A stretch of 64,000 bases of DNA. Source: Oscillospiraceae bacterium. GTDB taxonomy: Bacteria > Bacillota > Clostridia > Oscillospirales > Oscillospiraceae. Within the stretch, counting starts at the first letter, position 1. Every line of letters starts with the position of its first letter. Shown here in pieces: positions 42,454-64,000 of the stretch. A program made the translations under genes and the position numbers. The DNA lies in NCBI GenBank assembly GCA_015067995.1, contig SVLJ01000003.1:1-64000 (forward strand). Reading direction: 5' to 3'. The notes under the pieces are model-generated. The model did no database searches and was not told the DNA's origin. It worked only from the letters and a program-made list of their open reading frames with translations.

Positions 42454-45400
42454 TTACTTCAGGGTGCTGTACCAGCCGATGCCCTGATCCTGCCAGCCGA
42501 CACTGATGAGCATGGCGCGCTCACCTGCGTCGCTGGTGAAGTGCCACGCGCCGCGGACGGCGTTGGGGTTCCAGAGGCGATACTGCGCCACTTCCGTGTC
42601 GGGTGCGGAGTTGAAGGCCACGCCCTCCACGTGCCAGTCACCGGCAGTCTTCTGAGCAATTTCGGCCTCATCCATGGTGTACAGGTGGTCGCCGCTGACG
42701 GGGTTGTACAGACGGTACACCGGTGCACCGATGGCGGGGTAGTTGAAGCCCACGCCCTCATAGTTCCAGCCTTCCGTCACCAGAGTATCCCGCTCCAGCT
42801 CGCTGCCGGTGTAGAAGTGCTCACCGGCGTTGGGGTCGTACATACGGAACATGGGGACGGTGGTGAACTTGGTGTGGATCTCCACGCTGCCCGGAGCGTA
42901 CTCGTGGGTGCCGTCACCGTTGACATCCACGCCGGGGAACTGTGCTTCCACGGTGACAAAGCCTGCATCGGGAGAGTAGAGCACGGTGCCTTCCACATAC
43001 GCCTCGCCCTCATCTTCGGTAATGACGAAGACGGGAGAGACATTCATATTGGAGGATACCATATCCCTCATTTCCAGACCGGGGCCTGCATAGAAGGTGC
43101 AGATGGCCTCGGGGCTGCCGTGGATAGAGGTCAGGGTCTGCGCCGCGGGAGTAACGGTGACTTCCACGGTGGTCTGCACGCTGTCAATACCGCTGACTGC
43201 AGGGGTGAAGATCGCCGTGTAGCTGGCAGTGCCTGCATACAGCAGGGTGTTGGGCTCAGCCCATGCCCATGTGCCGGAGATGGGCGTGTCGCCTGCATTG
43301 GTGACCTTGCCGCCGGTCAAAACGGAAGCAGACAGCTTCCCATTGGGAGCGTAGGTCACATTGGCAGCCGTGGGCTTCTGATCAACGTTGGCTGCGCCGC
43401 TGGAGTACAGACATTCGGAGCAGGTATTGCCGTTCCACTCATGTGCTTCCTGAGGAACCACGACGGCATGGCAGCAGGTATACGCCTTGCTGTGGTGTGT
43501 GGCGGTCTTGGTCCACTCAGCGGTGCCGGTGTGGTTGGAGGGGTTCAGCGCACCGTAGGGATTGCCGCAGGCGGTACAGACGGCCTTTGCGGTACAGGTG
43601 GCAGTGCCGCCGGTGTGGGTGCAGCCGTAACCGCAGTCGGAGCAGACACCGCCGTTCCACTTGTGCTCTTCCTGAGGAACCACGACGGCATGGCAGCAGG
43701 TGTATTCCTTGCTGTGGTGTGTGGCGGTCTTGGTCCACTCGGCGGTGCCGGTGTGGTTGGAGGGGTTCAGCGCACCGTAGGGATTGCCGCAGGCGGTACA
43801 GACGGCCTTTGCGGTACAGGTGGCAGTGCCGCCGGTGTGAGTGCAGCCGTAACCGCAGTCGGAGCAGACACCGCCGTTCCAGTCATGCTCTTCCTGAGGA
43901 ACCACGACGGCATGGCAGCAGGTGTATGCCTTGCTGTGGTGGGTGGCGGTCTTGGTCCACTCAGCGGTGCCGGTGTGGTTGGAGCCGTTCAGCGCACCGT
44001 AGGGGCTGCCGCAGGTGGTACAGACGGCCTTTGCGGTACAGGTGGCAGTGCCGCCGGTGTGAGTGCAGTTGTAGCCGCACTCAGAGCAGACGCCATTGTT
44101 CCACTCATGGATTTCGTTGGGGATGACCACGGCATGGCAGCAGGTATATTCCTTGCTGTGGTGGGTGGCGGTCTTGGTCCACTGGGCGATGCCGCTATGA
44201 TTGGCGGCGTTCAGCGCACCGTAGGGGTTACCGCAGGCGGTACAGACGGCCTTTGCGGTACAGGTGGCGGTGCCGCCGGTGTGGGTGCAGCCGTAACCGC
44301 ACTCGCCGCAGACGCTGCCCGTCCAGTCATGCTCTTCCTGAGGAACCACGACGGCATGGCAGCAGGTGTACTCCTTGCTGTGGTGGGTGGCGGTCTTGAT
44401 CCAGTCGGCCGTGCCGGTGTGGTTGGAGCCGTTCATCGCACCGTAGGGGCTGCCGCAGGTGGTACAGACGGCCTTTGCGGTACAGGTGGCAGTGCCGCCG
44501 GTGTGAGTGCAGTTGTAGCCGCACTCAGAGCAGACGCCATTGTTCCACTCATGGACTTCGTTGGGGATCACCACTGCGTCGCAGCAGGTGTAGGCCTTGC
44601 TATGGGTGTCGGCATCCGCGGTCCACTGGGCGGTGCCGGTGTGGTTGGAAGAATTCAGTTCGCCGTAGCTCTGACCGCATTCGGTACAGACGGCCTGTGC
44701 GGTACAGGTGGCGGTACCGCCGGTATGTGCGCAGTTCCAGGTGATCACAAACTCGTTGCTGGTGGCGACGATCTCATCGCCCACATAGGCCGCGATGCGG
44801 AAGCGATGGGTTGCGTGATCGACGCTTTCAAAATCGTAGTCATCCAGCGCATTTTGGGGCGTCTGCACATCCCACTGATCCCATGCCTCGCCGTCCCAGT
44901 ACTGGATCTCGTTGCTGGTGGGCAGGAAGTTGGTCTCCCATGCGGTGTTGTGTGCCTCGCCTGCCATCACCTCGCCGCCCACGGGCTGGGTGGTGAAGGT
45001 GTAGAGCTCGATCTCGGGAGCGGCGGCGGGATTGCGGAAGGTGTACTGAATGGTGACCTTGTTGTCCTCCACGGTGACGGGGGTGAGATAGCTGATCTGG
45101 CTGCCGTTGACCAGAATGGTGAGGGCGTTGGCATCGGCAAACTGCACCATGTCGACGCCGCCTGCCTGTACGGCGGCCACCACGATCTCCACCTGATAGG
45201 GGATGCCGGACTCGAACACATCGTCCACGGTGCCTTCTTCAACGTCGGTCCACGTCACGCGCTCCACGGTATAGAGGGTGGGATCACCGGAGGTGATGTC
45301 GGTGTCGGGCACTTGGCCGCCCACGGGTGCATCCAGATCGGAGAGGGTGATGGTGGAAACCGTCTGCTCTGCGCAGGTGAAGGTGTAGTAAATACGAGCC

Positions 45401-48400
45401 TCGCTCATATTTGTCCAGCCCTCGTTGATCTCGGCGGTATTGCCGTTGATGGTGGCAGTGGGCAGAGCGTCATGCTCGCTCATATTGCGGAAGCGGAAGC
45501 CGTTGGCGGTATCTGCCACAAGGTTCAGCTGGCAGATATACGTTTCGCCGGGAACAAAGGTATCGGTGGGGAACACATAGTCCCAGTCGCCGGTCCACCA
45601 CTGCATACCGTTTCTGACGCCGTAGGTTTCGTTGTTTTTGGCGGTATTCATATGATAGCCGGTGCCGCGGACAGACCAGTTGTAGTCAGGCTTCTGTCCC
45701 GCAACGGGTGCGGTGACATTTTCCGCGGTGATCTTTTCCACTACGCTGTCCACGCACTCGCCGAAGTTGTATTCCACGGTGATATAGCGGGAAGGATCCT
45801 GCTCATAGGCCTTGATAACATTGGCGGAATAGCCGTTGACGGTGGCGGTCACATTGGGCTGAATGGTGCCCGTGTCGATCAGCGGGAACTCATAGCCCTC
45901 GTTGGTACGGATGTCCACGTAAAGCTTGTAATAGTAGCCCGACATAAAGGAGTGGGTTCCATTGATCTCCCACCAGTCGTCGTTGTCGGAGGACATATAC
46001 CACTGGCGGTAGTCGGTGTAATTGCTGCTGCCGCCCACGGCGTAGTAGGCATCGCTGCCGCAGCCGATGCCGTAGGAGGGAGTGCTGCCCTCCATGGGGG
46101 CGGTGACGGTCAGCTCCACCTGTGGAACGACATTGGGACACGCGCCGAAGTCCACGGACATCACGATGCCCTTTTTGGCATTACCGCCGTGGGCATTGAC
46201 GGTGGCGGTTTTATAGCTGATTTCGGCGCTGGTCAAGGGATCAGCGAACCTCACGCCATTATCAGCAACGAGGGTAACTTCCACGCGGTAGGTTCTGCCC
46301 GCCTCAAAGTGCGGGGCATATGCCAGATTCAGCGCTTCTCCGTTTTCATACCACACGATAGACTCCACCGTGCAGCCCTCGGGCACCCAATACACCTCTT
46401 CGGGATAAACGGTGGCGCTTTCGCCTGCAACGGGAGTCTCGACGTAAATTTCCACTTCAGAAATCTCCGTGTAGACCTCAACATAGCCGTTGATGGTGTC
46501 ACAGGTAGCGGGGTCGGTCTTGACACCGTTGACGGTCATCGCACAACCGTCCATCACATAGTCATCCAGCGTATCGGCGGCATAGCGCCCCAGCTTAATA
46601 CCGTCCGAGGTCATGCCGTAGATGCGCAGACCGCAGTCGTTCCAAACCGTGATGCCGTGGTCTACGGAACCATCACCCGTATCGCGCTCAACATAGAACT
46701 TGCCGTCCCAGATGCTGACGGAAAGGGAACGGTATTCTCCCTCTTCGCCAACAGCCATTGCGCAGATGCCGTCATCACCGCCGTAAACCTCGCCGATGAT
46801 GGTAGCACCGTTCTGAATGCTGACGCTGCCGCGGCGTGCGTTGATACCGTAGCAGTAACCTGTGTGGTAACCGTTGCTACCGCGAACGGTAGCGCCGTCC
46901 ACCGTCAAGTGGCCTCCGTCTACCGTAATGGCACTGTTTACAAAATACAATGTGCCGCCCTCGTAGGTCAGACTTCCGTTACCATGGATATAGAGAGAAG
47001 AATCAGCAGCATCTGTCAATGTCAGCAGCTGAATATAATATTTCAGGTCGTAGTTTCCGGTCAGCGGACATCTGAAAACCGCATTGCCCAAGAGGTTCAA
47101 GTCTTTGTGGCCGCGCACCACGATAGCTGTTCTCGTGATACCGTCGGGTTCTTTTTCTTCATCATGAGGAATCATGGGCAGCATGTCCTCCACATTGCCG
47201 AGAGCAACGTAGCGGATGTCGGGGCTTTCCATGGCGTACTTGAACTCGTCGTAGGAGTAGCAGACCATGGGATAGTAAGAACCGCTGCCCTCGCCGGGCT
47301 TGGGCTGGACGGTGTAGGTGATATACACCTTCAGATGCGTCCCACCGCTGTGTGCCTCGGTTTCAATGTCTACAAAAGAGGCATGGGCCTGTTGATAGTC
47401 GTTCAGCACCAGTGTGGGGCTGTCTGCGAAGCGGCAGGTTGTTTCGTACTCGTCCTTGATGACAAGCTCGAATTCAAGGCGGTATTTTTTGCCCACTTCA
47501 AGGTCGATGGAAGCAATGCTGTCGATTTCTTTCTCCGTCTCCACATCATACCACTCGTAGTAATTCGAAAACCGAATTTCATAGGGTGCATTCTGTTGCG
47601 TATATGAGGTGGTGAAGGGCAGACCGGAGGTACTGTTGTCTCCGCCGCGGATCAGGTAGAAGTCCTCGTTGCCTGCTTTGGTATCCAGGGTAACGGTGTT
47701 GATCGCGTCCAAATCGCTGACGTTGTAGGTATAGGTCACGGTCGCCACCGTGCGGTCATCGGAAAGGCTGACAACGCCGTATTCCTCTTCCCCCTGCATA
47801 CCCTTCTGCGCCAGCAGGTTTTCGGAGAACTTGTAGCCGGGGAGGGCGGTCAGTTCGATCATATGCACATAGGTGTTGCCCGCTTCGAATCGGTTTTTGC
47901 CAGTGGAGGTATCCCATGTGCAGGCATTACCCCAGCTGCCGGTGTTCCATTCCTCGCGGGTGATGGCACAGTTGTTGTAGATCAGCTTAGCGGCGTCGGG
48001 CTGAGCGTCCCCGTCTCTGGGTGTGCCGTAATAGACCATGGACACCTTGTTGATGTCGGGATAAGTACGGTCTCCGGGGATGCGGAAGGTGAATCGGACA
48101 AACATAACAGTGTGGTCATCATTGAAGCCCGTGACCTCATAGTCCCACATGGAGCGCTCCGGCCCCATCAGATGCACGGTGGCATTTTCCGCAAAGGTAT
48201 AGCCGCTATTCGCTTCGAAATAGAAGTAGTCGGTGGTATAGCTGCGGCCTGCCTCAAATTCGTAGCCGCGGTCATAATGGTGGCCGATATTTGCCGAGAT
48301 CAGCACGCCGTTTTCATCCCGCCATTCCGAGCCGTTCCACGTGCGGCTGTAGGGCTCGCCGTCGGGAATGTCAGGCATAAAGTGGCTCACTTCCATGCCG

Positions 48401-49959
48401 GCACGGGGAATGTTTTCCGACGCGATCTTGCCAACGACCTCCGCGATCTCGTTATCGTCCTTGTCACGGAAGATGGCATACAGGAACTTATCGCCGGTGG
48501 CAGTGAAGGAATACTCGGCCTCTCTGGAGATGGTGGCACCCTGCGTGCCCTGCCGCCATTCCACAAAGACATAGCCCGGTGTGGGCGCTGCTTTCACCGT
48601 CACGGCAGTACCCTCGATCGCCGACATCGTTTCGCCCGAACTCGTCCAGTCCACGACCCCCACATTGGTTTCCAGATACACCTGACCGCCGCTGTCCATA
48701 ACACCGTTTGTACCGTCATAAGCATAGGCACCGATGGTGTAGAGCGTGGTGGATGCGGGGCCGGTATAGCGGGGACTCTCGTTGTAAACGCTGTCTCTTG
48801 CATTGCTCGCGGTGGCCTTCACAGCAAAGAACCAGTCCTCGCCGATGGTTGCCACGGAGCTGAAATCAAAATATGTATCCGTCGTCGTCCAGTGGTTATA
48901 GCCGGAACCGCTGGGCTGGTAGAGATAAACAGTATAGCTTTCCGCGCCGTCAACGGCACTCCACCCCGCCATATTGCCGTTCCAATAGAGATTGGAGGGC
49001 GCTTCCAGCTTGCCATAGGGACTGGAATACATGAAATATTCGGTACCGCCATGGGAAGAAACATTGCTGCCTTTGGGACTAAGCGAAACCATGATGGTGC
49101 CGGAGTCTTTTTTATAGGCGTTTAACTTCTCCTGAAGGGAATAGCTGCATTGCGTCAGGCCGTTTTCCGCCATGAAAAGGCCGTCCTTCGTCCAGATGCT
49201 CAGATCGTAAGAGGTAGCACCGGGAACCGAATTCCACAACAGCGTACCGTTTTCGTTCACAGTAAGGATCTGCTGGCTTTCGGCGCGCAGACCGCTGCCG
49301 ACAATATGACCTCTGCGGTAGCTCTCATTGTACTCGCTGGGGCGGTAATCCCCTGTGGAGGTGGCTCTGACGGTAAAATACCAGCCGTCGCTCACACGGG
49401 TGGCCACCTCCGGATAGTTGGTGCAGGCGAAATAGGATGTATCGCCAAGGTCGTAATGGTTGAAGGCACCGCCACTGGGCTGATACAGGTAAATCGTATA
49501 GCCGTCGGCATTGGCAACGTCGTCCCAATCCGGATTGCCATTGACGTCCCAGCGCAGGTTGGTGGGCGCTTCCAGCTTGGGATAGGGGCTGGCATACAGG
49601 AAGTTGGCGCTACCCCCCTGTCCGGAGCCACCCCAGACATTAATGGTCACTTCCACGGTACCGGAGTCCTTTTTGTATCCGTCCAGCATCGCTTCCAGTT
49701 CGTAGCTTGTGACCGTAAGGCCGGTCTCCGACTTGACGAGACCGCCTTTCATCCGAACGTTCAGATCATAAGAGGTCGCGCCGGGGACATCGGTCCACGT
49801 CAGCACGCCGTTGTTGTCCACGGTAAGGGTCAGGTCGCCTGCGGCTACGCTGTCGGCTCTTACTCCATACGGACTTTCTGCCGCCATAGCCGTCACGCTC
49901 AAGCCCAGCACTAAGATAAGGGCAAAGAACAAGCCAATAAGTTTTTGTGTTCGTTTCAT
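42454..49959 (-). CDS. Giant secreted repeat protein (adhesin-like), 2501 aa
   Basis: ATG 49959 (MKRTQKLIGLFFALILVLGL) follows TAAGGAGGAAGATCAGAAT; signal peptide cut near AMAA. The N-terminal quarter has repeats 'LTVDNNGVLTWTDVPGATSYDL', fibronectin-III/Ig-like. The middle contains many beta modules of about 110 residues and a beta-helix-like patch (about 1000-1150, GGHLTVDGATVRGSNG). Residues about 1743-2186 are six 74-residue Cys/His-rich repeats. The last 135 residues are three DUF5648-type units (RMYDPNAGEHFYTGSELERD). No LPxTG sorting motif or C-terminal membrane anchor is visible, so it is secreted or held non-covalently. Ligand unknown. Confidence 0.85.
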   Translation of the reverse strand: MKRTQKLIGLFFALILVLGLSVTAMAAESPYGVRADSVAAGDLTLTVDNNGVLTWTDVPGATSYDLNVRMKGGLVKSETGLTVTSYELEAMLDGYKKDSGTVEVTINVWGGSGQGGSANFLYASPYPKLEAPTNLRWDVNGNPDWDDVANADGYTIYLYQPSGGAFNHYDLGDTSYFACTNYPEVATRVSDGWYFTVRATSTGDYRPSEYNESYRRGHIVGSGLRAESQQILTVNENGTLLWNSVPGATSYDLSIWTKDGLFMAENGLTQCSYSLQEKLNAYKKDSGTIMVSLSPKGSNVSSHGGTEYFMYSSPYGKLEAPSNLYWNGNMAGWSAVDGAESYTVYLYQPSGSGYNHWTTTDTYFDFSSVATIGEDWFFAVKATASNARDSVYNESPRYTGPASTTLYTIGAYAYDGTNGVMDSGGQVYLETNVGVVDWTSSGETMSAIEGTAVTVKAAPTPGYVFVEWRQGTQGATISREAEYSFTATGDKFLYAIFRDKDDNEIAEVVGKIASENIPRAGMEVSHFMPDIPDGEPYSRTWNGSEWRDENGVLISANIGHHYDRGYEFEAGRSYTTDYFYFEANSGYTFAENATVHLMGPERSMWDYEVTGFNDDHTVMFVRFTFRIPGDRTYPDINKVSMVYYGTPRDGDAQPDAAKLIYNNCAITREEWNTGSWGNACTWDTSTGKNRFEAGNTYVHMIELTALPGYKFSENLLAQKGMQGEEEYGVVSLSDDRTVATVTYTYNVSDLDAINTVTLDTKAGNEDFYLIRGGDNSTSGLPFTTSYTQQNAPYEIRFSNYYEWYDVETEKEIDSIASIDLEVGKKYRLEFELVIKDEYETTCRFADSPTLVLNDYQQAHASFVDIETEAHSGGTHLKVYITYTVQPKPGEGSGSYYPMVCYSYDEFKYAMESPDIRYVALGNVEDMLPMIPHDEEKEPDGITRTAIVVRGHKDLNLLGNAVFRCPLTGNYDLKYYIQLLTLTDAADSSLYIHGNGSLTYEGGTLYFVNSAITVDGGHLTVDGATVRGSNGYHTGYCYGINARRGSVSIQNGATIIGEVYGGDDGICAMAVGEEGEYRSLSVSIWDGKFYVERDTGDGSVDHGITVWNDCGLRIYGMTSDGIKLGRYAADTLDDYVMDGCAMTVNGVKTDPATCDTINGYVEVYTEISEVEIYVETPVAGESATVYPEEVYWVPEGCTVESIVWYENGEALNLAYAPHFEAGRTYRVEVTLVADNGVRFADPLTSAEISYKTATVNAHGGNAKKGIVMSVDFGACPNVVPQVELTVTAPMEGSTPSYGIGCGSDAYYAVGGSSNYTDYRQWYMSSDNDDWWEINGTHSFMSGYYYKLYVDIRTNEGYEFPLIDTGTIQPNVTATVNGYSANVIKAYEQDPSRYITVEYNFGECVDSVVEKITAENVTAPVAGQKPDYNWSVRGTGYHMNTAKNNETYGVRNGMQWWTGDWDYVFPTDTFVPGETYICQLNLVADTANGFRFRNMSEHDALPTATINGNTAEINEGWTNMSEARIYYTFTCAEQTVSTITLSDLDAPVGGQVPDTDITSGDPTLYTVERVTWTDVEEGTVDDVFESGIPYQVEIVVAAVQAGGVDMVQFADANALTILVNGSQISYLTPVTVEDNKVTIQYTFRNPAAAPEIELYTFTTQPVGGEVMAGEAHNTAWETNFLPTSNEIQYWDGEAWDQWDVQTPQNALDDYDFESVDHATHRFRIAAYVGDEIVATSNEFVITWNCAHTGGTATCTAQAVCTECGQSYGELNSSNHTGTAQWTADADTHSKAYTCCDAVVIPNEVHEWNNGVCSECGYNCTHTGGTATCTAKAVCTTCGSPYGAMNGSNHTGTADWIKTATHHSKEYTCCHAVVVPQEEHDWTGSVCGECGYGCTHTGGTATCTAKAVCTACGNPYGALNAANHSGIAQWTKTATHHSKEYTCCHAVVIPNEIHEWNNGVCSECGYNCTHTGGTATCTAKAVCTTCGSPYGALNGSNHTGTAEWTKTATHHSKAYTCCHAVVVPQEEHDWNGGVCSDCGYGCTHTGGTATCTAKAVCTACGNPYGALNPSNHTGTAEWTKTATHHSKEYTCCHAVVVPQEEHKWNGGVCSDCGYGCTHTGGTATCTAKAVCTACGNPYGALNPSNHTGTAEWTKTATHHSKAYTCCHAVVVPQEAHEWNGNTCSECLYSSGAANVDQKPTAANVTYAPNGKLSASVLTGGKVTNAGDTPISGTWAWAEPNTLLYAGTASYTAIFTPAVSGIDSVQTTVEVTVTPAAQTLTSIHGSPEAICTFYAGPGLEMRDMVSSNMNVSPVFVITEDEGEAYVEGTVLYSPDAGFVTVEAQFPGVDVNGDGTHEYAPGSVEIHTKFTTVPMFRMYDPNAGEHFYTGSELERDTLVTEGWNYEGVGFNYPAIGAPVYRLYNPVSGDHLYTMDEAEIAQKTAGDWHVEGVAFNSAPDTEVAQYRLWNPNAVRGAWHFTSDAGERAMLISVGWQDQGIGWYSTLK
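43402..44733 (-). repeat. Six 222-bp tandem repeats encoding Cys/His-rich modules
   Basis: Each unit is 74 codons: CTHTGGTATCTAKAVCTACG, then ATHHSKEYTCCHAVV and a closing CxxCGY. Copies 2-6 differ at few positions; copy 1 is more diverged. Four to six Cys and several His per unit suggest metal binding or disulfides. Confidence 0.93.
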
Positions 49960-49988
49960 ATTCTGATCTTCCTCCTTATTCAGGTGTT

Positions 49989-50246
49989 TTACAAAAGGGA
50001 TTTCCCGCATTCCGGACAGTACCGTGACCCGGGCGAGAGCACCGTGTCACAGTCCGGGCAGCAGGTGTGCTGCTGCTTGTAGCGGTCGTACAGCGTTTCG
50101 CCGGACAGTTTTGCCTTACAGTCCGGACAGGAGCCGGCTTTCCCGCGAACCATCCGGCCGCAGTTGGCGCACACCTTCGTTTTCTTCATCACATTGGGGC
50201 CAAAGCCGAATTCCTCCAATGTGCGGTATCGCATCAGCTGGGTCAT
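49989..50246 (-). CDS. Zinc-ribbon protein, 85 aa
   Basis: Two or three Cys pairs: KVCANCGRMV, SCPDCKAK, CCPDCDTVL and RYCPECGKSLL, i.e. paired zinc ribbons. The start ATG 50246 overlaps the stop of the preceding gene by ATGA. Small, cytoplasmic, no enzymatic motif. It lies 30 bp upstream of the giant repeat protein, so it may be co-transcribed with it. Function unknown. Confidence 0.8.
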   Translation of the reverse strand: MTQLMRYRTLEEFGFGPNVMKKTKVCANCGRMVRGKAGSCPDCKAKLSGETLYDRYKQQHTCCPDCDTVLSPGSRYCPECGKSLL

Positions 50247-58363: not shown

Positions 58364-58670
58364 GGAAAAGAGCCCTGTGCAGCGGGACGAAAAGGGCCGC
58401 TTCGTCAAGGGCGTCAGCGGCAATCCCAGCGGCCGGCCGCCGCTGCCGCCGGATTTCCGCCGGTTCGGCAGGGAGGCCGCTGCCCGCCTCCGCGCCATTG
58501 CCGACGATCCGGACACTCCGGTGAAGCTGAAGGCGGAGATCGAGTGGTTTTTCATTGAGGGCGTGTACGGCAAGGCCGCTTCCCGGACGGAAAAGGAGGG
58601 GAAGGGAAGCGCCCCGTCCACGGAGCAGACCATCAAATTTGAGGGGGTGTTGGAGGAATGGAGCGGATAA
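58350..58670 (+). CDS. DUF5681-type protein, possible small terminase
   Basis: 106 residues; ATG 58350 with AAGGAG just upstream. RDEKGRFVKGVSGNPSGRPP is the DUF5681 signature, found at the N-terminus of phage small terminase-like proteins. A helical segment follows (REAAARLRAIADDPDTPVKL). Position directly before the large terminase supports DNA recognition in packaging. The last codons lie inside a 146-bp tandem repeat. Confidence 0.75.
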   Translation: MALCEEKSPVQRDEKGRFVKGVSGNPSGRPPLPPDFRRFGREAAARLRAIADDPDTPVKLKAEIEWFFIEGVYGKAASRTEKEGKGSAPSTEQTIKFEGVLEEWSG

Positions 58671-58962
58671 GAAGGGCTCCCGCCGCAAACCAGCGCAGCG
58701 TTTGCGGTGGGAAGAGGACGAGCAGCGGAGGGAAGGAGGTGTGGCGTGTACGCCGCACCGAGAGATCCGGAGCTTGTGAGGACGACGAGGGGGTGTTGGA
58801 GGAATGGAGCGGATAAGAAGGGCTCCCGCCGCAAACCAGCGCAGCGTTTGCGGTGGGAAGAGGACGAGCAGCGGAGGGAAGGAGGTGTGGCGTGTACGCC
58901 GCACCGAGAGATCCGGAGCTTGTGAGGACGACGAGGGGGTGCTGGAGGAATGGAGCGGATAA
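58641..58962 (+). repeat. Two 146-bp tandem repeats plus a partial third, between the terminase genes
   Basis: GAGGGGGTG... starts at 58641, 58787 and 58933 (period 146). Each copy holds the overlap GAATGGAGCGGATAA (stop of the DUF5681 frame within the ATG GAG CGG ATA start of terL). The first two ATGs (58659, 58805) enter 52-codon dead-end frames; only the third (58950) opens terL. An inner stem CCGCAAAC/GTTTGCGG lies in each copy. Confidence 0.9.
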
Positions 58963-60368
58963 GTGAGCCGTTGATTTTCCGGCATCTCCGTGAGGAGGTG
59001 CCCAACCCCAAGCAGCAGCGGTTTTTTCGGGCACGGGCAAAGCACATCGGCTACGGCGGCGCCCGGGGCGGCGGCAAAAGCTGGGCCGCCCGACGCAAGG
59101 GTGTGATGCTGTGCATGCGCTACCCCGGCCTCAAGGGCATCCTCATCCGCCGCACCATGCCGGAGCTGCGCAACAACCACATCCTTCCCCTGATGAGCGA
59201 ACTGAACGGCTACGCACAGTACAGCAGCGACCAGCGGGCCTTCCGGTTTCCCAACGGCAGCCGCTTTATGATGGGCTACTGCGACAACGAGGGCGACCTG
59301 CTGCAGTATCAGGGACAGGAGTTCGACTTCATCATCTTCGAGGAGGCCACCGGTCTGCCGGAGGAGTGGATGAAGTTCATCTGCACCGCCCTGCGCACCG
59401 TCCGGACGGACTTCACGCCCCGGGTGTACTACACCATGAACCCCGGCGGCCCCGGTCACGCCTACATCAAGCGCATCTTCATCGACCGGCAGTACCGGGA
59501 TGGGGAGCGGCCGGAGGACTATGTGTTCATTCAGGCCACGGTACATGACAACCGGGTGCTGATGGACGCCAACCCCGACTACATCCGGATGCTGGAGGCG
59601 CTGCCGGAGCACAAGCGCCGTGCCCACCTCCACGGTGAGTGGGATGTGTACGAGGGGCAGGTGTTTGAGGAGCTGCGCAACGACCCCGACCACTATGAAG
59701 ACCGGCTGTGGACGCATGTCATCGCCCCCTTTGACATTCCGGAGCGGTGGGAGGTCTGGCGCAGCTTCGACTTCGGCTACGCCAAGCCCTTCTCCTGCGG
59801 CTGGTGGGCGGTGGATCACGACGGGAGGCTCTACCGCATTCTGGAGCTGTACGGCTGCGTCCCGGACCAGCCGGACACCGGCATCCGGTGGTCGCCGGAC
59901 GAGATCTTCCGGGAGATCCATCGGCTGGAAACAGAGCATCCGTGGCTGCGGGGCAGGCGAATCCAGGGAGTGGCGGACCCCGCCATCTGGGACGCCAGCC
60001 ACGGCATATCCATCGCGGAGACGGCGGAGCGGCATCGGGTGTACTTCGAGCCGGGAGACCACCAGCGGCTGCCGGGGTGGATGCAGGTGCATTACCGGCT
60101 GCAGTTTGATGCCAACGGCATCCCCATGCTGTACGTCTTTTCCGGCTGCCGTGCCTTTCTGCGCACCATGCCGCTGCTCACCTACGATCCCCAGAAGCCG
60201 GAGGATGTGGACACCCGGCAGGAGGATCACGTGGCGGACGAGGTGCGTTACCTCTGTATGGCCAATCCCATGAAGCCGGTGCGGACGGTGCAGCGCACAC
60301 CGCAGGTGTTCGATCCCCTCAGCAGCGATGCGCCCCACGACCGCTACGCATTCTACAAAAAATACTGA
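58950..60368 (+). CDS. terL: Phage terminase large subunit
   Basis: 472 residues. ATPase: Walker A GYGGARGGGKSWAARR (about residue 36), Walker B FDFIIFEEATG. Nuclease: WRSFDFGYAKPFSC (first Asp), GVADPAIWDAS and EDHVADEVRY (later acidic residues). It cuts concatemeric DNA and drives it into the procapsid. The start lies in the third copy of the 146-bp repeat. Confidence 0.95.
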   Translation: MERISEPLIFRHLREEVPNPKQQRFFRARAKHIGYGGARGGGKSWAARRKGVMLCMRYPGLKGILIRRTMPELRNNHILPLMSELNGYAQYSSDQRAFRFPNGSRFMMGYCDNEGDLLQYQGQEFDFIIFEEATGLPEEWMKFICTALRTVRTDFTPRVYYTMNPGGPGHAYIKRIFIDRQYRDGERPEDYVFIQATVHDNRVLMDANPDYIRMLEALPEHKRRAHLHGEWDVYEGQVFEELRNDPDHYEDRLWTHVIAPFDIPERWEVWRSFDFGYAKPFSCGWWAVDHDGRLYRILELYGCVPDQPDTGIRWSPDEIFREIHRLETEHPWLRGRRIQGVADPAIWDASHGISIAETAERHRVYFEPGDHQRLPGWMQVHYRLQFDANGIPMLYVFSGCRAFLRTMPLLTYDPQKPEDVDTRQEDHVADEVRYLCMANPMKPVRTVQRTPQVFDPLSSDAPHDRYAFYKKY

Positions 60369-60402
60369 ACGCGGCATTTGCCGCAAGAGGAGGAAACCGA
60401 GA

Positions 60403-62256
60403 ATGAACGAAATCAACCCTCTGCAGACGCTGCCTGTGGGCGAGAAGCGGCTGGAGGAGGCCGCGGAGACCCTGCGGCGCTACAAGGCCGGGAAGGCGGC
60501 CTTTGAAAACCGGATTCTGGAGGAGGAGCGCTGGTACCGCCTGCGCCACTGGGAGCTGATCCGGGGCGCGGACGCCGGACGGGGCGACGAGGCCAGACCC
60601 GAGCCCACGTCGGCATGGCTGTTCAACTCCATTGCCAACAAGCACGCCGACATGATGGACAACTATCCCGAACCCAATGTGCTGCCCCGGGAGGAGCGGG
60701 ACGAGGCCGACGCCGAGACCCTCTCCGGCATCCTGCCGGTGATCTTCCAGCGCTGCGGCTACGAGCAGACCTACGACCGGGCGGCATGGTACAAGCTCAA
60801 GCACGGCGTGGCCGCCAAGGGCGTCTTCTGGAACCCGGAGCTGGAGCAGGGCATGGGCGATGTGGATGTGCGGTTCATGGATATGCTGAACCTCTTCTGG
60901 GAACCGGGCATCACCGATCTGCAGGCCAGCCGCAATCTCTTTGTGGTGGAGCTGCGGGACAACGACCTGCTGGAGCGGGAATACCCTCAGCTGCAGGGCA
61001 GGCTGGGAAGCCGGGTCATCGATGTGAAGCAGTATATCTACGATGACGCCGTGGATGTCAGCGGCAAAAGCGTGGTGGTGGACTGGTACTACAAGCAGCG
61101 CACCGCCACCGGCCGCACCGTCCTCCACTACTGCAAGTTCGTGGGAGATCAGGTGTTGTTTGCCAGCGAAAATGAGCCGGAGCGGTACCCCATGGGCTTC
61201 TACGCCCACGGCCGCTATCCCGTGGAGCTGGATGTGCTGTTCCCGGAGGAGGGCACGCCGGTGGGCTTCGGCTACATCGCCATTATGAAGTCCCCCCAGC
61301 TCTACATCGACAAGCTCTCGCAGGTGATCCTGGAAAACGCCATGATGAGCGCCCGGGTGCGCTATCTGGTGAAGGAGGGCGCGGGCATCAGTGACGAGGA
61401 GTTTCTGGACTGGAGCCGTCCGCTGGTGAAGTACAACGGCGACCCCAACAACATCGTGCCGGTGCAGGTGCAGCCGGTGGGAGGCAATGCGCTGAACATC
61501 CTGCAGATGAAGATCAACGAGCTGAAGGAGACCTCCAGCAACCGGGATGTCAGTCAGGGCAGCAGCTCCGGCGGCGTTACGGCGGCGGCAGCCATCGCCG
61601 CGCTGCAGGAGGCAGGCAACAAGACCAGCCGGGACATGATCGGCGCCAGCTACCGCAGCTTTACGCAGGAGTGCTATCTGGCCATCGAGCTGATCCGTCA
61701 GTTCTACGATGAGCTGCGCTGCTTCCGCATCACCGGCGATACCGGCGGCTACCGCTACGTACGCTACAGCAACGGCGCCATCCGGGGACAGCTGCTGCCT
61801 CCCGCATGGCCCGGTCAGGAGCGGGAACCCGGCTATCTGCCCGCCACCCGCGTGCCGGTGTTCGATGTGGTGGTGAAGCCCCAGAAGCGCAGTTCCTACT
61901 CCAAAATGGCCCAGAACGAGCTGGCCAAGGAGCTGTACCGTCTGGGCTTCTTCCGGGCGGAGCTGGCAGACCAGAGCCTCGTGGCGCTGGAGCTGATGGA
62001 CTTTGACGGACAGGAGAAGGTGAAGCGCAGCATCCAGCGGGGCAAGACCCTGTACGAACAGGTGGAACGCCTCACCGCCGCCCTGAGCCGCCTTACCGGC
62101 GGCGGAGCATTGGCATCGGAAACCGGAAAGCCCCGCGTCCCCGCTGTGCCGAAGAAATCCATGGGCAGCGCCGCCACCGATGCCGCAAAAGCCACCATGA
62201 CCGCCTACGGCGAGAAGCTGGCAAAGCGCGCCAGGGTGGATATGGACGCCCACTGA
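60403..62256 (+). CDS. Phage portal protein
   Basis: 617 residues; ATG 60403 behind AAGAGGAGGAAACCGAGA. Helical N-terminus (YKAGKAAFENRILEEERWYR), the DNA-channel type region, VKYNGDPNNIVPVQVQPVGG and a Gly/Ala-rich crown (QGSSSGGVTAAAAIAALQEA). Length and order (terL-portal-scaffold-capsid) match portals of podo-like phages with N4-gp56 capsids. It forms the dodecameric vertex for DNA entry. Confidence 0.88.
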   Translation: MNEINPLQTLPVGEKRLEEAAETLRRYKAGKAAFENRILEEERWYRLRHWELIRGADAGRGDEARPEPTSAWLFNSIANKHADMMDNYPEPNVLPREERDEADAETLSGILPVIFQRCGYEQTYDRAAWYKLKHGVAAKGVFWNPELEQGMGDVDVRFMDMLNLFWEPGITDLQASRNLFVVELRDNDLLEREYPQLQGRLGSRVIDVKQYIYDDAVDVSGKSVVVDWYYKQRTATGRTVLHYCKFVGDQVLFASENEPERYPMGFYAHGRYPVELDVLFPEEGTPVGFGYIAIMKSPQLYIDKLSQVILENAMMSARVRYLVKEGAGISDEEFLDWSRPLVKYNGDPNNIVPVQVQPVGGNALNILQMKINELKETSSNRDVSQGSSSGGVTAAAAIAALQEAGNKTSRDMIGASYRSFTQECYLAIELIRQFYDELRCFRITGDTGGYRYVRYSNGAIRGQLLPPAWPGQEREPGYLPATRVPVFDVVVKPQKRSSYSKMAQNELAKELYRLGFFRAELADQSLVALELMDFDGQEKVKRSIQRGKTLYEQVERLTAALSRLTGGGALASETGKPRVPAVPKKSMGSAATDAAKATMTAYGEKLAKRARVDMDAH

Positions 62257-62300: not shown

Positions 62301-63512
62301 ATGATTCACATTTACTATGCATATGAAGGAAAATACCACATCCTGCGCATCACCGGCCATGCCGGTTACGCCCCCCGGGGGCAGGACATCGTCTGCGCGG
62401 GAGTCAGCGCCGTTACCCACGCCCTGCTGGCGTATATGCGGGAACTGAGGGCGGTGAAGAAGGCCTGCGGTCAGTCGGGGGAGCTGGAGCTCCTCTGCCA
62501 TGGCTGCGATGAGACCCATGCTGCCTTTGACATGGCGCTGGCCGGATATGAAGCGATCGCGAAGGCTTATCCACAGCATGTGGAAGTCGATATACCACCC
62601 GAACGGAAGGGCGAAGAAGAACACGGGCCTGCCTTTGACCTGCAGCTGTTTGGCGACGGCGCAGCAGCTGCCGGAGCGGGGACGGGCCGGGCTGAGACCA
62701 CAGCAGGAGCCGGAAGCAGCCGCCGGCTCACCACGGGCGCGACCCAGACACCGGGCGGCACAGAAACCGCCCAGCCTCCCGCCGCCGGGGAGGCAAAGAG
62801 CAGCGACGCAGCGGACAAGCGCAAGGCCTTCCGGGCCCTCATCGAGGGCGAGTACAAGGAGCAGTACACCGAGCTGTTCCAGAACGCCTTCAACCGGCGT
62901 TTCCGGGAGGCCAAGGGCATGGAGAGCCGTCTCAAGGCGCAAAAGCCCGTTCTGGAGCTGCTGGCTCAGCGCTACAACGTCCAGCCCGACGACATGGCCG
63001 GTCTGCGCTCCGCCATGGAGGCGGACGAGAGCTACTGGCGTGCCGCCGCGGAAAAGGCCGGTATGAGCGTGGAGCAGTACCGCCAGTTTGAAAAGCTGCG
63101 TCAGGACAGCCGCCAGCTGCAGCAGCTGCGTCAGCGCCAGAGGGCCGGACAGCAGCTCACCGGCTGGCTCCGGGAGGCCAGTGCGGTGAGAAACCAGTAC
63201 CCCGCCTTCGACTTCCAGGCAGAGCTGGCAGACGGCAATTTCCGTCAGCTGCTGCGCTCCGGTGTGGGTGTGCAGCAGGCCTATGAGCTGCGCCACATGG
63301 AGGAGATCAAGGCTGCCGCCGCCCGACAGGCGGCACAGTCCGCAGGCGAGCAGATGGCCGCCCGCATCCAGAGCCGCAGCGTCCGTCCCAGAGAGAACGG
63401 CATTTCCACACAGAGCGCCGCCGTCACAGGCAGCGATGTGCGCTCTTTGACCCCCGCCCAGCGGAGGGAGATCGCACGCCGCGTACAGAGAGGGGACAAG
63501 ATCCGATTCTGA
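62301..63512 (+). CDS. Fusion of Prp-type cysteine protease and phage scaffold protein
   Basis: 403 residues; ATG 62301 behind AAAGGAAGGAAATACC. Residues 1-100 match Prp (YsxB), the protease that trims ribosomal protein L27: TGHAGYAPRGQDIVCAGVSA carries His20 and Cys32, spaced as in Prp. Residues 112-118 read FDLQLFG, closely like the Prp cleavage motif (L27 LNLQFFA). A Gly/Ala/Thr linker follows (119-165), then an Ala/Gln-rich helical scaffold domain (about 170-403) ending in a basic tail. I infer self-cleavage at residue 118 to free the scaffold and cleavage of the capsid protein at its own FDLQLFA. Confidence 0.85.
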   Translation: MIHIYYAYEGKYHILRITGHAGYAPRGQDIVCAGVSAVTHALLAYMRELRAVKKACGQSGELELLCHGCDETHAAFDMALAGYEAIAKAYPQHVEVDIPPERKGEEEHGPAFDLQLFGDGAAAAGAGTGRAETTAGAGSSRRLTTGATQTPGGTETAQPPAAGEAKSSDAADKRKAFRALIEGEYKEQYTELFQNAFNRRFREAKGMESRLKAQKPVLELLAQRYNVQPDDMAGLRSAMEADESYWRAAAEKAGMSVEQYRQFEKLRQDSRQLQQLRQRQRAGQQLTGWLREASAVRNQYPAFDFQAELADGNFRQLLRSGVGVQQAYELRHMEEIKAAAARQAAQSAGEQMAARIQSRSVRPRENGISTQSAAVTGSDVRSLTPAQRREIARRVQRGDKIRF

Positions 63513-63545
63513 GTCCTTACCAACATTTGAAAGGGGAAAATTACC

Positions 63546-64000
63546 ATGATGAACAACACTATGCATACCATCCGTTTTGATCTGCAGCTGTTTGCAGAGC
63601 CCAACACCCAGACCACCGCAGGCCTCTCCGAGGAGATGCGTGTGTTCTACAGCGACTATCTGGTGGACAACGCCGTGCCCCGTCTGGTGCACGACCAGTT
63701 CGGCCAGAAGCATCCCATTCCCGAGGGCGGCGGCAAGACCATCGAGTTCCGCAAGTACAGCCACCTGCCCAAGCTGACCACCCCCCTCACCGAGGGTGTC
63801 ACTCCCGACGGCCAGAGCCTCACCGTCAGCACCGTCACCGCCACTGTGGCGCAGTACGGCGGCTACGTGACCCTCAGCGATGTGCTGCTGCTCACCGCTG
63901 TGGACAACAATCTGATGCAGGCCACCAAGCTGCTGGGCGCTCAGGCCGGTGCCACCCTGGACACCATCACCCGTGAGGTGCTGGTGGGCGGCACCAACGT
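63546..64000 (+). CDS. Major capsid protein (N4-gp56 type), N-terminal part, cut by window edge
   Basis: About 151 residues seen. ATG 63546 (63549 possible) behind AAAGGGGAAAATTACC. Residues 11-17 are FDLQLFA, a Prp-like cleavage site with E-P-N after it. The core has RLVHDQFGQKHPIPEGGGKT, VAQYGGYVTLSDVLLLTAVD and LLGAQAGATLDTITREVL, the N4-gp56 coat protein pattern. The rest lies outside the window. Confidence 0.9.
   Translation, partial: MMNNTMHTIRFDLQLFAEPNTQTTAGLSEEMRVFYSDYLVDNAVPRLVHDQFGQKHPIPEGGGKTIEFRKYSHLPKLTTPLTEGVTPDGQSLTVSTVTATVAQYGGYVTLSDVLLLTAVDNNLMQATKLLGAQAGATLDTITREVLVGGTN

Follow-up and report, generated by a model that had tools for sequence, protein, structure and literature searches.

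In phage lambda, the protease C and the scaffold Nu3 share a reading frame that holds an internal start. A protease joined to a scaffold is also found in phage P2, whose gpO has an N-terminal protease and a C-terminal scaffold, reportedly cleaves both itself and the capsid protein, and is inactivated by the S107A substitution (PMC7552001). Proteases of MEROPS family C108 are in turn known to act on phage heads. In particular, the Cp-1 protease, a C108 member, is described in PMC12445089 as cutting the N-terminus of the head protein, while in staphylococcal phage 80alpha it is the host Prp that cuts both the capsid and the scaffold proteins (PMC5744158). According to that paper, 80alpha is viable without cleavage of either protein, the uncut scaffold N-terminus is required, and what Prp cleavage contributes to heads is not yet clear. 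Each of the three elements (phage C108 proteases, processing of capsid and scaffold proteins by Prp, and protease-scaffold fusions) is already known; a Prp-scaffold fusion, its recurrence and the link between enzyme loop and substrate position P3 described below were not found in the open-access PMC literature searched.

The window, i.e., the whole stretch of 64,000 nt analysed here (contig SVLJ01000003.1 of Oscillospiraceae bacterium GCA_015067995.1, positions 1 to 64,000, forward strand), contains an open reading frame of 403 aa (62301-63512, plus strand) with an ATG start and AAGGAAGG ahead of it. An earlier note had read this frame as a Prp-like protease joined to a scaffold domain, with His20 and Cys32 in the proper spacing, FDLQLFG at residues 112-118 and FDLQLFA at residues 11-17 of the adjacent capsid protein, and all of these elements were found at the claimed residues. 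Indeed, Pfam PF04327 (Peptidase_Prp) matches residues 1-94 with 57.6 bits against a cut-off of 27, H20, D29 and C32 lie in the spacing H-x8-D-x2-C, and residues 113-403 match phrog_13908, a family without a named function, at E 1.3e-76. A scaffold role of the C-terminal domain is suggested by its position, by its helices and by a BFVD match named 'Scaffolding protein' (A0A8S5QTW4). Profile and sequence evidence thus confirms a Prp-family cysteine protease followed by a predicted disordered linker with FDLQLFG and by a helical scaffold-like domain (Table 1). The extent proposed earlier, 62301-63600, covers the whole fusion and also takes in 55 bases from the start of the capsid gene.

Table 1. 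Features of the fusion locus and its neighbours (window coordinates)
Feature	Coordinates	Strand	Basis
Large terminase gene	58950..60368	+	PHROGs and Pfam terminase matches
P22-like portal gene	60328..62256	+	Pfam P22_portal, 102.3 bits
Prp-family (C108) protease domain, residues 1-100; L2 loop between H20 and C32	62301..62600	+	PF04327 match
Linker, residues 102-167, predicted disordered	62604..62801	+	pLDDT <50
FDLQLFG, residues 112-118, putative self-cleavage site (after F117)	62634..62654	+	Sequence; motif recurrence
Helical scaffold-like domain, residues 168-403	62802..63509	+	phrog_13908, pre-capsid position, model helices
Major capsid protein gene, 330 aa, runs on to contig base 64538	63546..64000	+	phrog_1357 major head protein, Pfam Phage_capsid_4; full length in L045
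FDLQLFA, capsid residues 11-17, putative cleavage site (after F16)	63576..63596	+	Sequence; Prp-loop covariation

The protease domain could also be compared with solved Prp sequences, an alignment that the earlier note had proposed. With the single fusion protein as a phmmer query, PDB sequences gave no match at E 0.01; the profile search recovered four Prp sequences, the profile alignment to which places the active site of the fusion, and the predicted model of the domain has the Prp fold. In addition, the counterparts of G21, H22, G29, D31, C34 and S38 of SaPrp, the roles of which are given in PMC9405229, are invariant in 18/18 aligned fusions. The best score against the NCBIfam Prp equivalogs is 34.5 bits, below cut-offs of at least 133, so that by these models the window Prp is not an orthologue of the cellular L27 protease. 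An assembly or frameshift artefact can be ruled out, since two IMG/VR virus contigs with different sample numbers (L003 and L004) carry the fusion unchanged, at 100% identity. Free scaffold made from an internal start was likewise rejected for this gene, there being no ATG, GTG or TTG within 14 codons upstream of the junction motif; every scaffold copy would therefore come with a protease.

The pairing of the two motifs resembles the substrates of 80alpha, where an LQxF/A motif lies near the N-termini of both the scaffold and the capsid protein and the protease belongs to the same family; unlike the unfused host enzyme of 80alpha, the protease of the window phage is encoded by the phage and joined to the scaffold. 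Across the six frames of the window (127,996 codons), [DN]LQxF[AG] matches twice, at the fusion junction and on the capsid protein. At least one match arose in 176 of 200,000 composition shuffles of the 403-aa frame and in 104 of 200,000 shuffles of the 151-aa capsid part within the window. The window also holds 2.2 copies of a 146-base repeat unit, matching at 99% (58641-58963), directly ahead of the large terminase gene, and a minus-strand frame of 2518 aa (42454-50010) with repeated Cys-rich units of the CTHTGGTATC...HEWN type near its C-terminal part. No PADLOC match to anti-phage defence was found.

Several described phages come close to this arrangement. Like the window's Prp, the Cp-1 protease is phage-encoded and of the same family, but it is a separate gene with a short loop (GHGDDTDQSCA), and no LQxF site was seen near residue 48 of the Cp-1 capsid protein. 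The stand-alone Prps of phiFL3A (Enterococcus), PLgT-1 (Lactococcus) and TMW 1.1365 P3 (Latilactobacillus) share with the window a position after the portal and LQxFA motifs on scaffold and capsid protein, but are not fused, and the phiFL3A scaffold belongs to another family (phrog_172). Like P2 gpO, the chain has an N-terminal protease, here joined to a C-terminal part that is probably a scaffold, although the protease is of a different type, a C108 cysteine protease; the fusion is best filed as a Prp-family protease that would work like P2 gpO rather than as a member of gpO. Candidate internal starts, recalling lambda C/Nu3, occur in 21/35 distinct fusions, whereas the window gene has none and its protease is of another family than that of lambda.

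A search for further Prp-scaffold fusions, also suggested earlier, showed that the arrangement recurs. The first loci, with 194 Prp matches, yielded 24 fusions distinct in their downstream part, and 23 of 135 distinct Prp domains were fused (both among the matches listed). Once genome-contig loci were added, where 13 of 80 were fused (the best 80 of at least 362), the total rose to at least 35 distinct fusions, counted by the first 60 residues after the Prp domain. All 35 of those found among the matches listed have a junction site of the form xLQxF[AGS], which ends in A or G in 34 of them and in Ser in one (L255, FLQCFS). The fused genome-contig loci include Faecalibacterium prausnitzii, F. 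longum, F. hattorii and F. gallinarum, while none of the 41 Prps at genome-contig loci with an L27-like AHKKG/ASKKG frame extends more than 12 residues beyond the Prp domain (among the best 80 of at least 362). In two fusions (L037, 4595-5680; L176, 3604-4695), a second LQxFA site follows about 47 residues later, which would suit removal of a spacer by a cut on either side. The BFVD protein A0A8S5S6H4 (405 aa, 'Uncharacterized protein'), which matches over 334 columns, is perhaps another fusion. Among capsid-retrieved loci, fusions are a minority (6 of 126 distinct Prps, among the matches listed), and the Prp is usually a separate gene: of 160 such loci with more than 2,500 bases upstream, repeated contigs kept, 150 have a Prp match and 10 have none, some of the latter with NLQLFA (among the matches listed). 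Capsid relatives with LQxF motifs and no Prp match in the upstream DNA (L094/L411, L416 and L346) may use host Prp.

Two relatives indicate how the window fusion may have formed. In L007 (60% identical), the Prp and scaffold genes are separate with an ATGA overlap, and the scaffold starts MNITRTQGAACDLQLFADG, an N-terminus that equals the junction site of the window fusion. In L005 (67% identical), Prp and scaffold are read in one frame, within which an ATG is preceded by AGGAG. The stretch with the scaffold start, present in both, is absent from the window, so that the putative scaffold-trimming site of L007 would have become the putative site at which protease and scaffold part. A comparison of the window with L005 gives a dN lower than dS for each half (0.28 vs 0.56 in Prp; 0.15 vs 0.52 in the scaffold part). 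The Faecalibacterium fusions and that of the window fall into clades that do not make up a single group on the capsid tree (AU p 3.2e-7, for a group named after the tree had been seen and with L255 and L039 left out). A single origin is rejected accordingly: the fusion arose at least twice, and the window and Faecalibacterium fusions are separate.

The enzyme and its presumed substrates vary together. The main count was based on capsid-retrieved loci, for which Prp status was ignored at retrieval, together with the window (L002) and without L142 and L161, which had been returned again under old ids. The capsid scans covered the best 80 of 170, 71 of 71 and the best 80 of at least 596 matches; the Prp pattern scans (best 80 of 134 and best 80 of at least 362) used patterns with GQDIVCA, which favour the normal loop, and for this reason the main count rests on the capsid-retrieved loci. 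Among the matches listed there (126 distinct Prps, 15 uncounted), the capsid P3 residue is Gln in 65 of 67 distinct Prps with a normal L2 loop (H-x11-C), in 1/8 of those with 10 residues from His to Cys and in 1/36 of those with other lengths; pooled, the altered loops have P3 Gln in 2/44 and lack it in 42/44. By eye, three normal-loop loci (L458, L465 and L466) read NLQLM, and L391, scored as a miss and left out of the tree, reads INAQLFA. A set of mixed retrieval (129 distinct, among the matches listed) gave capsid Gln in 86/88 normal-loop and 1/30 other Prps (11 uncounted), and scaffold Gln in 73/80 and 1/26, respectively (23 uncounted).

On a capsid tree of 110 rows, there are 9 loop changes and 8 Gln changes. 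Independent pairs (5 supported, 3.8 on average changing the same way, 0 opposite, median p 0.125) are consistent with a link without being significant, and a Pagel-type test on a midpoint-rooted quick tree gives LR 45.9 and p 2.5e-9; when events are few, tests of this kind may exaggerate the signal, the Prp tree may differ from that of the capsid protein, and the link was noticed before testing. A physical reason is provided by SaPrp, where the P3 Gln bonds Gly29 and Asp31 of L2 (PMC9405229, section 3.4.1), so that the covariation is as these contacts predict. Altered-loop phages, L047, L048, L049 and L051 among them, have a shortened L2 loop and a capsid protein that starts with an LxLF(D/N) core and has no P3 Gln; three of their Prp-like proteins fall under the Pfam cut-off. 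A reading of these relatives as dead enzymes, which followed a regular-expression pass, was dropped after a residue-level check, which found both His and Cys in place with fewer residues between them. An alignment of 15 altered-loop Prps shows no variation at the His, the Ala after it, the Cys or the Ser at the fourth position after the Cys, so that these enzymes are probably active. The loop of the Cp-1 protease, the enzyme described as acting on its head protein, is of this short type as well.

The covariation of loop and capsid motif speaks for action of the phage enzyme on these sites, and the host genomes bear on the same question. Of 18 genomes, 16 yielded an L27; among the 15 N-termini read, 11 are extended (QFFAHKK) and 4 start with MAHKK. 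The latter, in G060, G129, G109 and G017 (L225-L228), have no N-terminal extension and come from the same family as the window's genome. G109 is 95% complete, and its single PF04327 match is a phage gene, located downstream of a capsid gene with the motif FDLQFFA at a distance of about 1 kb; no motif was seen in its scaffold-position protein. No PF04327 match was found at E 0.01 in G129, G060 and G017, of which G129 and G017 are less than 90% complete, and the L27 match of G017 contains a stop. In three hosts of short-loop phages (G029, G091 and G077), L27 reads IGLQFFAHKK and the phage capsids VLDLFD, ILSLFD and DLALFD, without Gln. The window's host has its own Prp, which matches the phage domain over 33 residues at 39%, and an extended L27; host cleavage is therefore possible there.

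Indeed, host Prp might do the cutting, with the phage domain mainly binding the motif as a chaperone or adaptor. Host Prp cuts both proteins of 80alpha (PMC5744158), and Prp has been proposed as an L27 chaperone (section 3.3.2 of PMC9405229), but the phage domain keeps its catalytic residues, the G109 host has no other PF04327 match, and loop and motif covary, which makes this reading quite improbable. The reverse relation, with host L27 or the ribosome as the target of the phage enzyme, draws on family membership shared with host Prp and on the related motif in L27. However, the enzyme is fused to or lies beside head genes, and a relative phage occurs where L27 has no extension and no other Prp match is present; action on L27, which the earlier note had raised, is unsupported as a general role, and we give it very little credence.

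If the phage enzyme does act on head proteins, the fusion itself could still be incidental: it would act on the capsid protein, with spacer and scaffold start lost and the junction cut unneeded. The absence from the window of the stretch seen in L005 and L007, the small share of fused Prps among those retrieved by capsid and the dispensability of cleavage in 80alpha (PMC5744158) fit such a view, whereas the two or more origins and the junction motif kept in every distinct fusion speak against it, and we regard it as unlikely. Nor is it at all probable that the motif common to both proteins signals assembly or docking instead of marking a cut site. The need of 80alpha for an intact scaffold N-terminus and not for its cleavage (PMC5744158) would agree with this, as would the LxLF core kept at both N-termini in altered-loop phages, but P1' is Ala in 85/88 normal-loop capsid motifs (among the loci listed), which fits the small P1' of Prp substrates described in PMC9405229. 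Within normal-loop phages, scaffold and capsid motifs also agree at P2 in 54/77 cases versus 38.8 after permutation (0/5000 permutations).

We thus consider it rather likely that the fusion is a phage-encoded C108 head-maturation protease, in one chain with the scaffold, that would cut the capsid protein and its own junction. From the domains, fold, active-site residues, motif conservation, recurrence of the fusion and covariation of loop and motif observed here, we infer cleavage as well as its timing, incorporation into procapsids and release. The scaffold half would bring the protease into the assembling procapsid, where the enzyme would cut after F117 at its own junction, perhaps between neighbouring chains, freeing the protease from the scaffold, and after F16 of the capsid protein, removing the first 16 residues. 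The earlier idea of a phage-borne Prp on a scaffold holds as regards fold, active-site residues, junction motif and covariation, and is less isolated than claimed, given that stand-alone Prp is usual in this phage group and given the Cp-1 protease and P2 gpO.

Collectively, these data suggest that a phage of a gut-type bacterium probably possesses a shell-trimming tool delivered by the scaffold itself. More tentatively, and with a probability that we would put somewhat short of even, a mostly-gut phage group may have its own Prp enzymes coevolved with capsid and scaffold sites, in pairs apart from Prp-L27, with a normal-loop class that needs P3 Gln, a short-loop class that cuts an LxLF core lacking this Gln, and at least two lineages in which fusion to the scaffold gave a one-to-one, self-releasing maturation protease. 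Since the phage itself encodes the protease and couples it to the scaffold, the enzyme could be tested via the phage gene or by co-expression, leaving an essential host gene untouched. The fusion would add a cysteine protease to the protease-scaffold designs, and the covariation of loop and P3 represents a direct prediction of specificity for a protease family that is studied as an antibiotic target.
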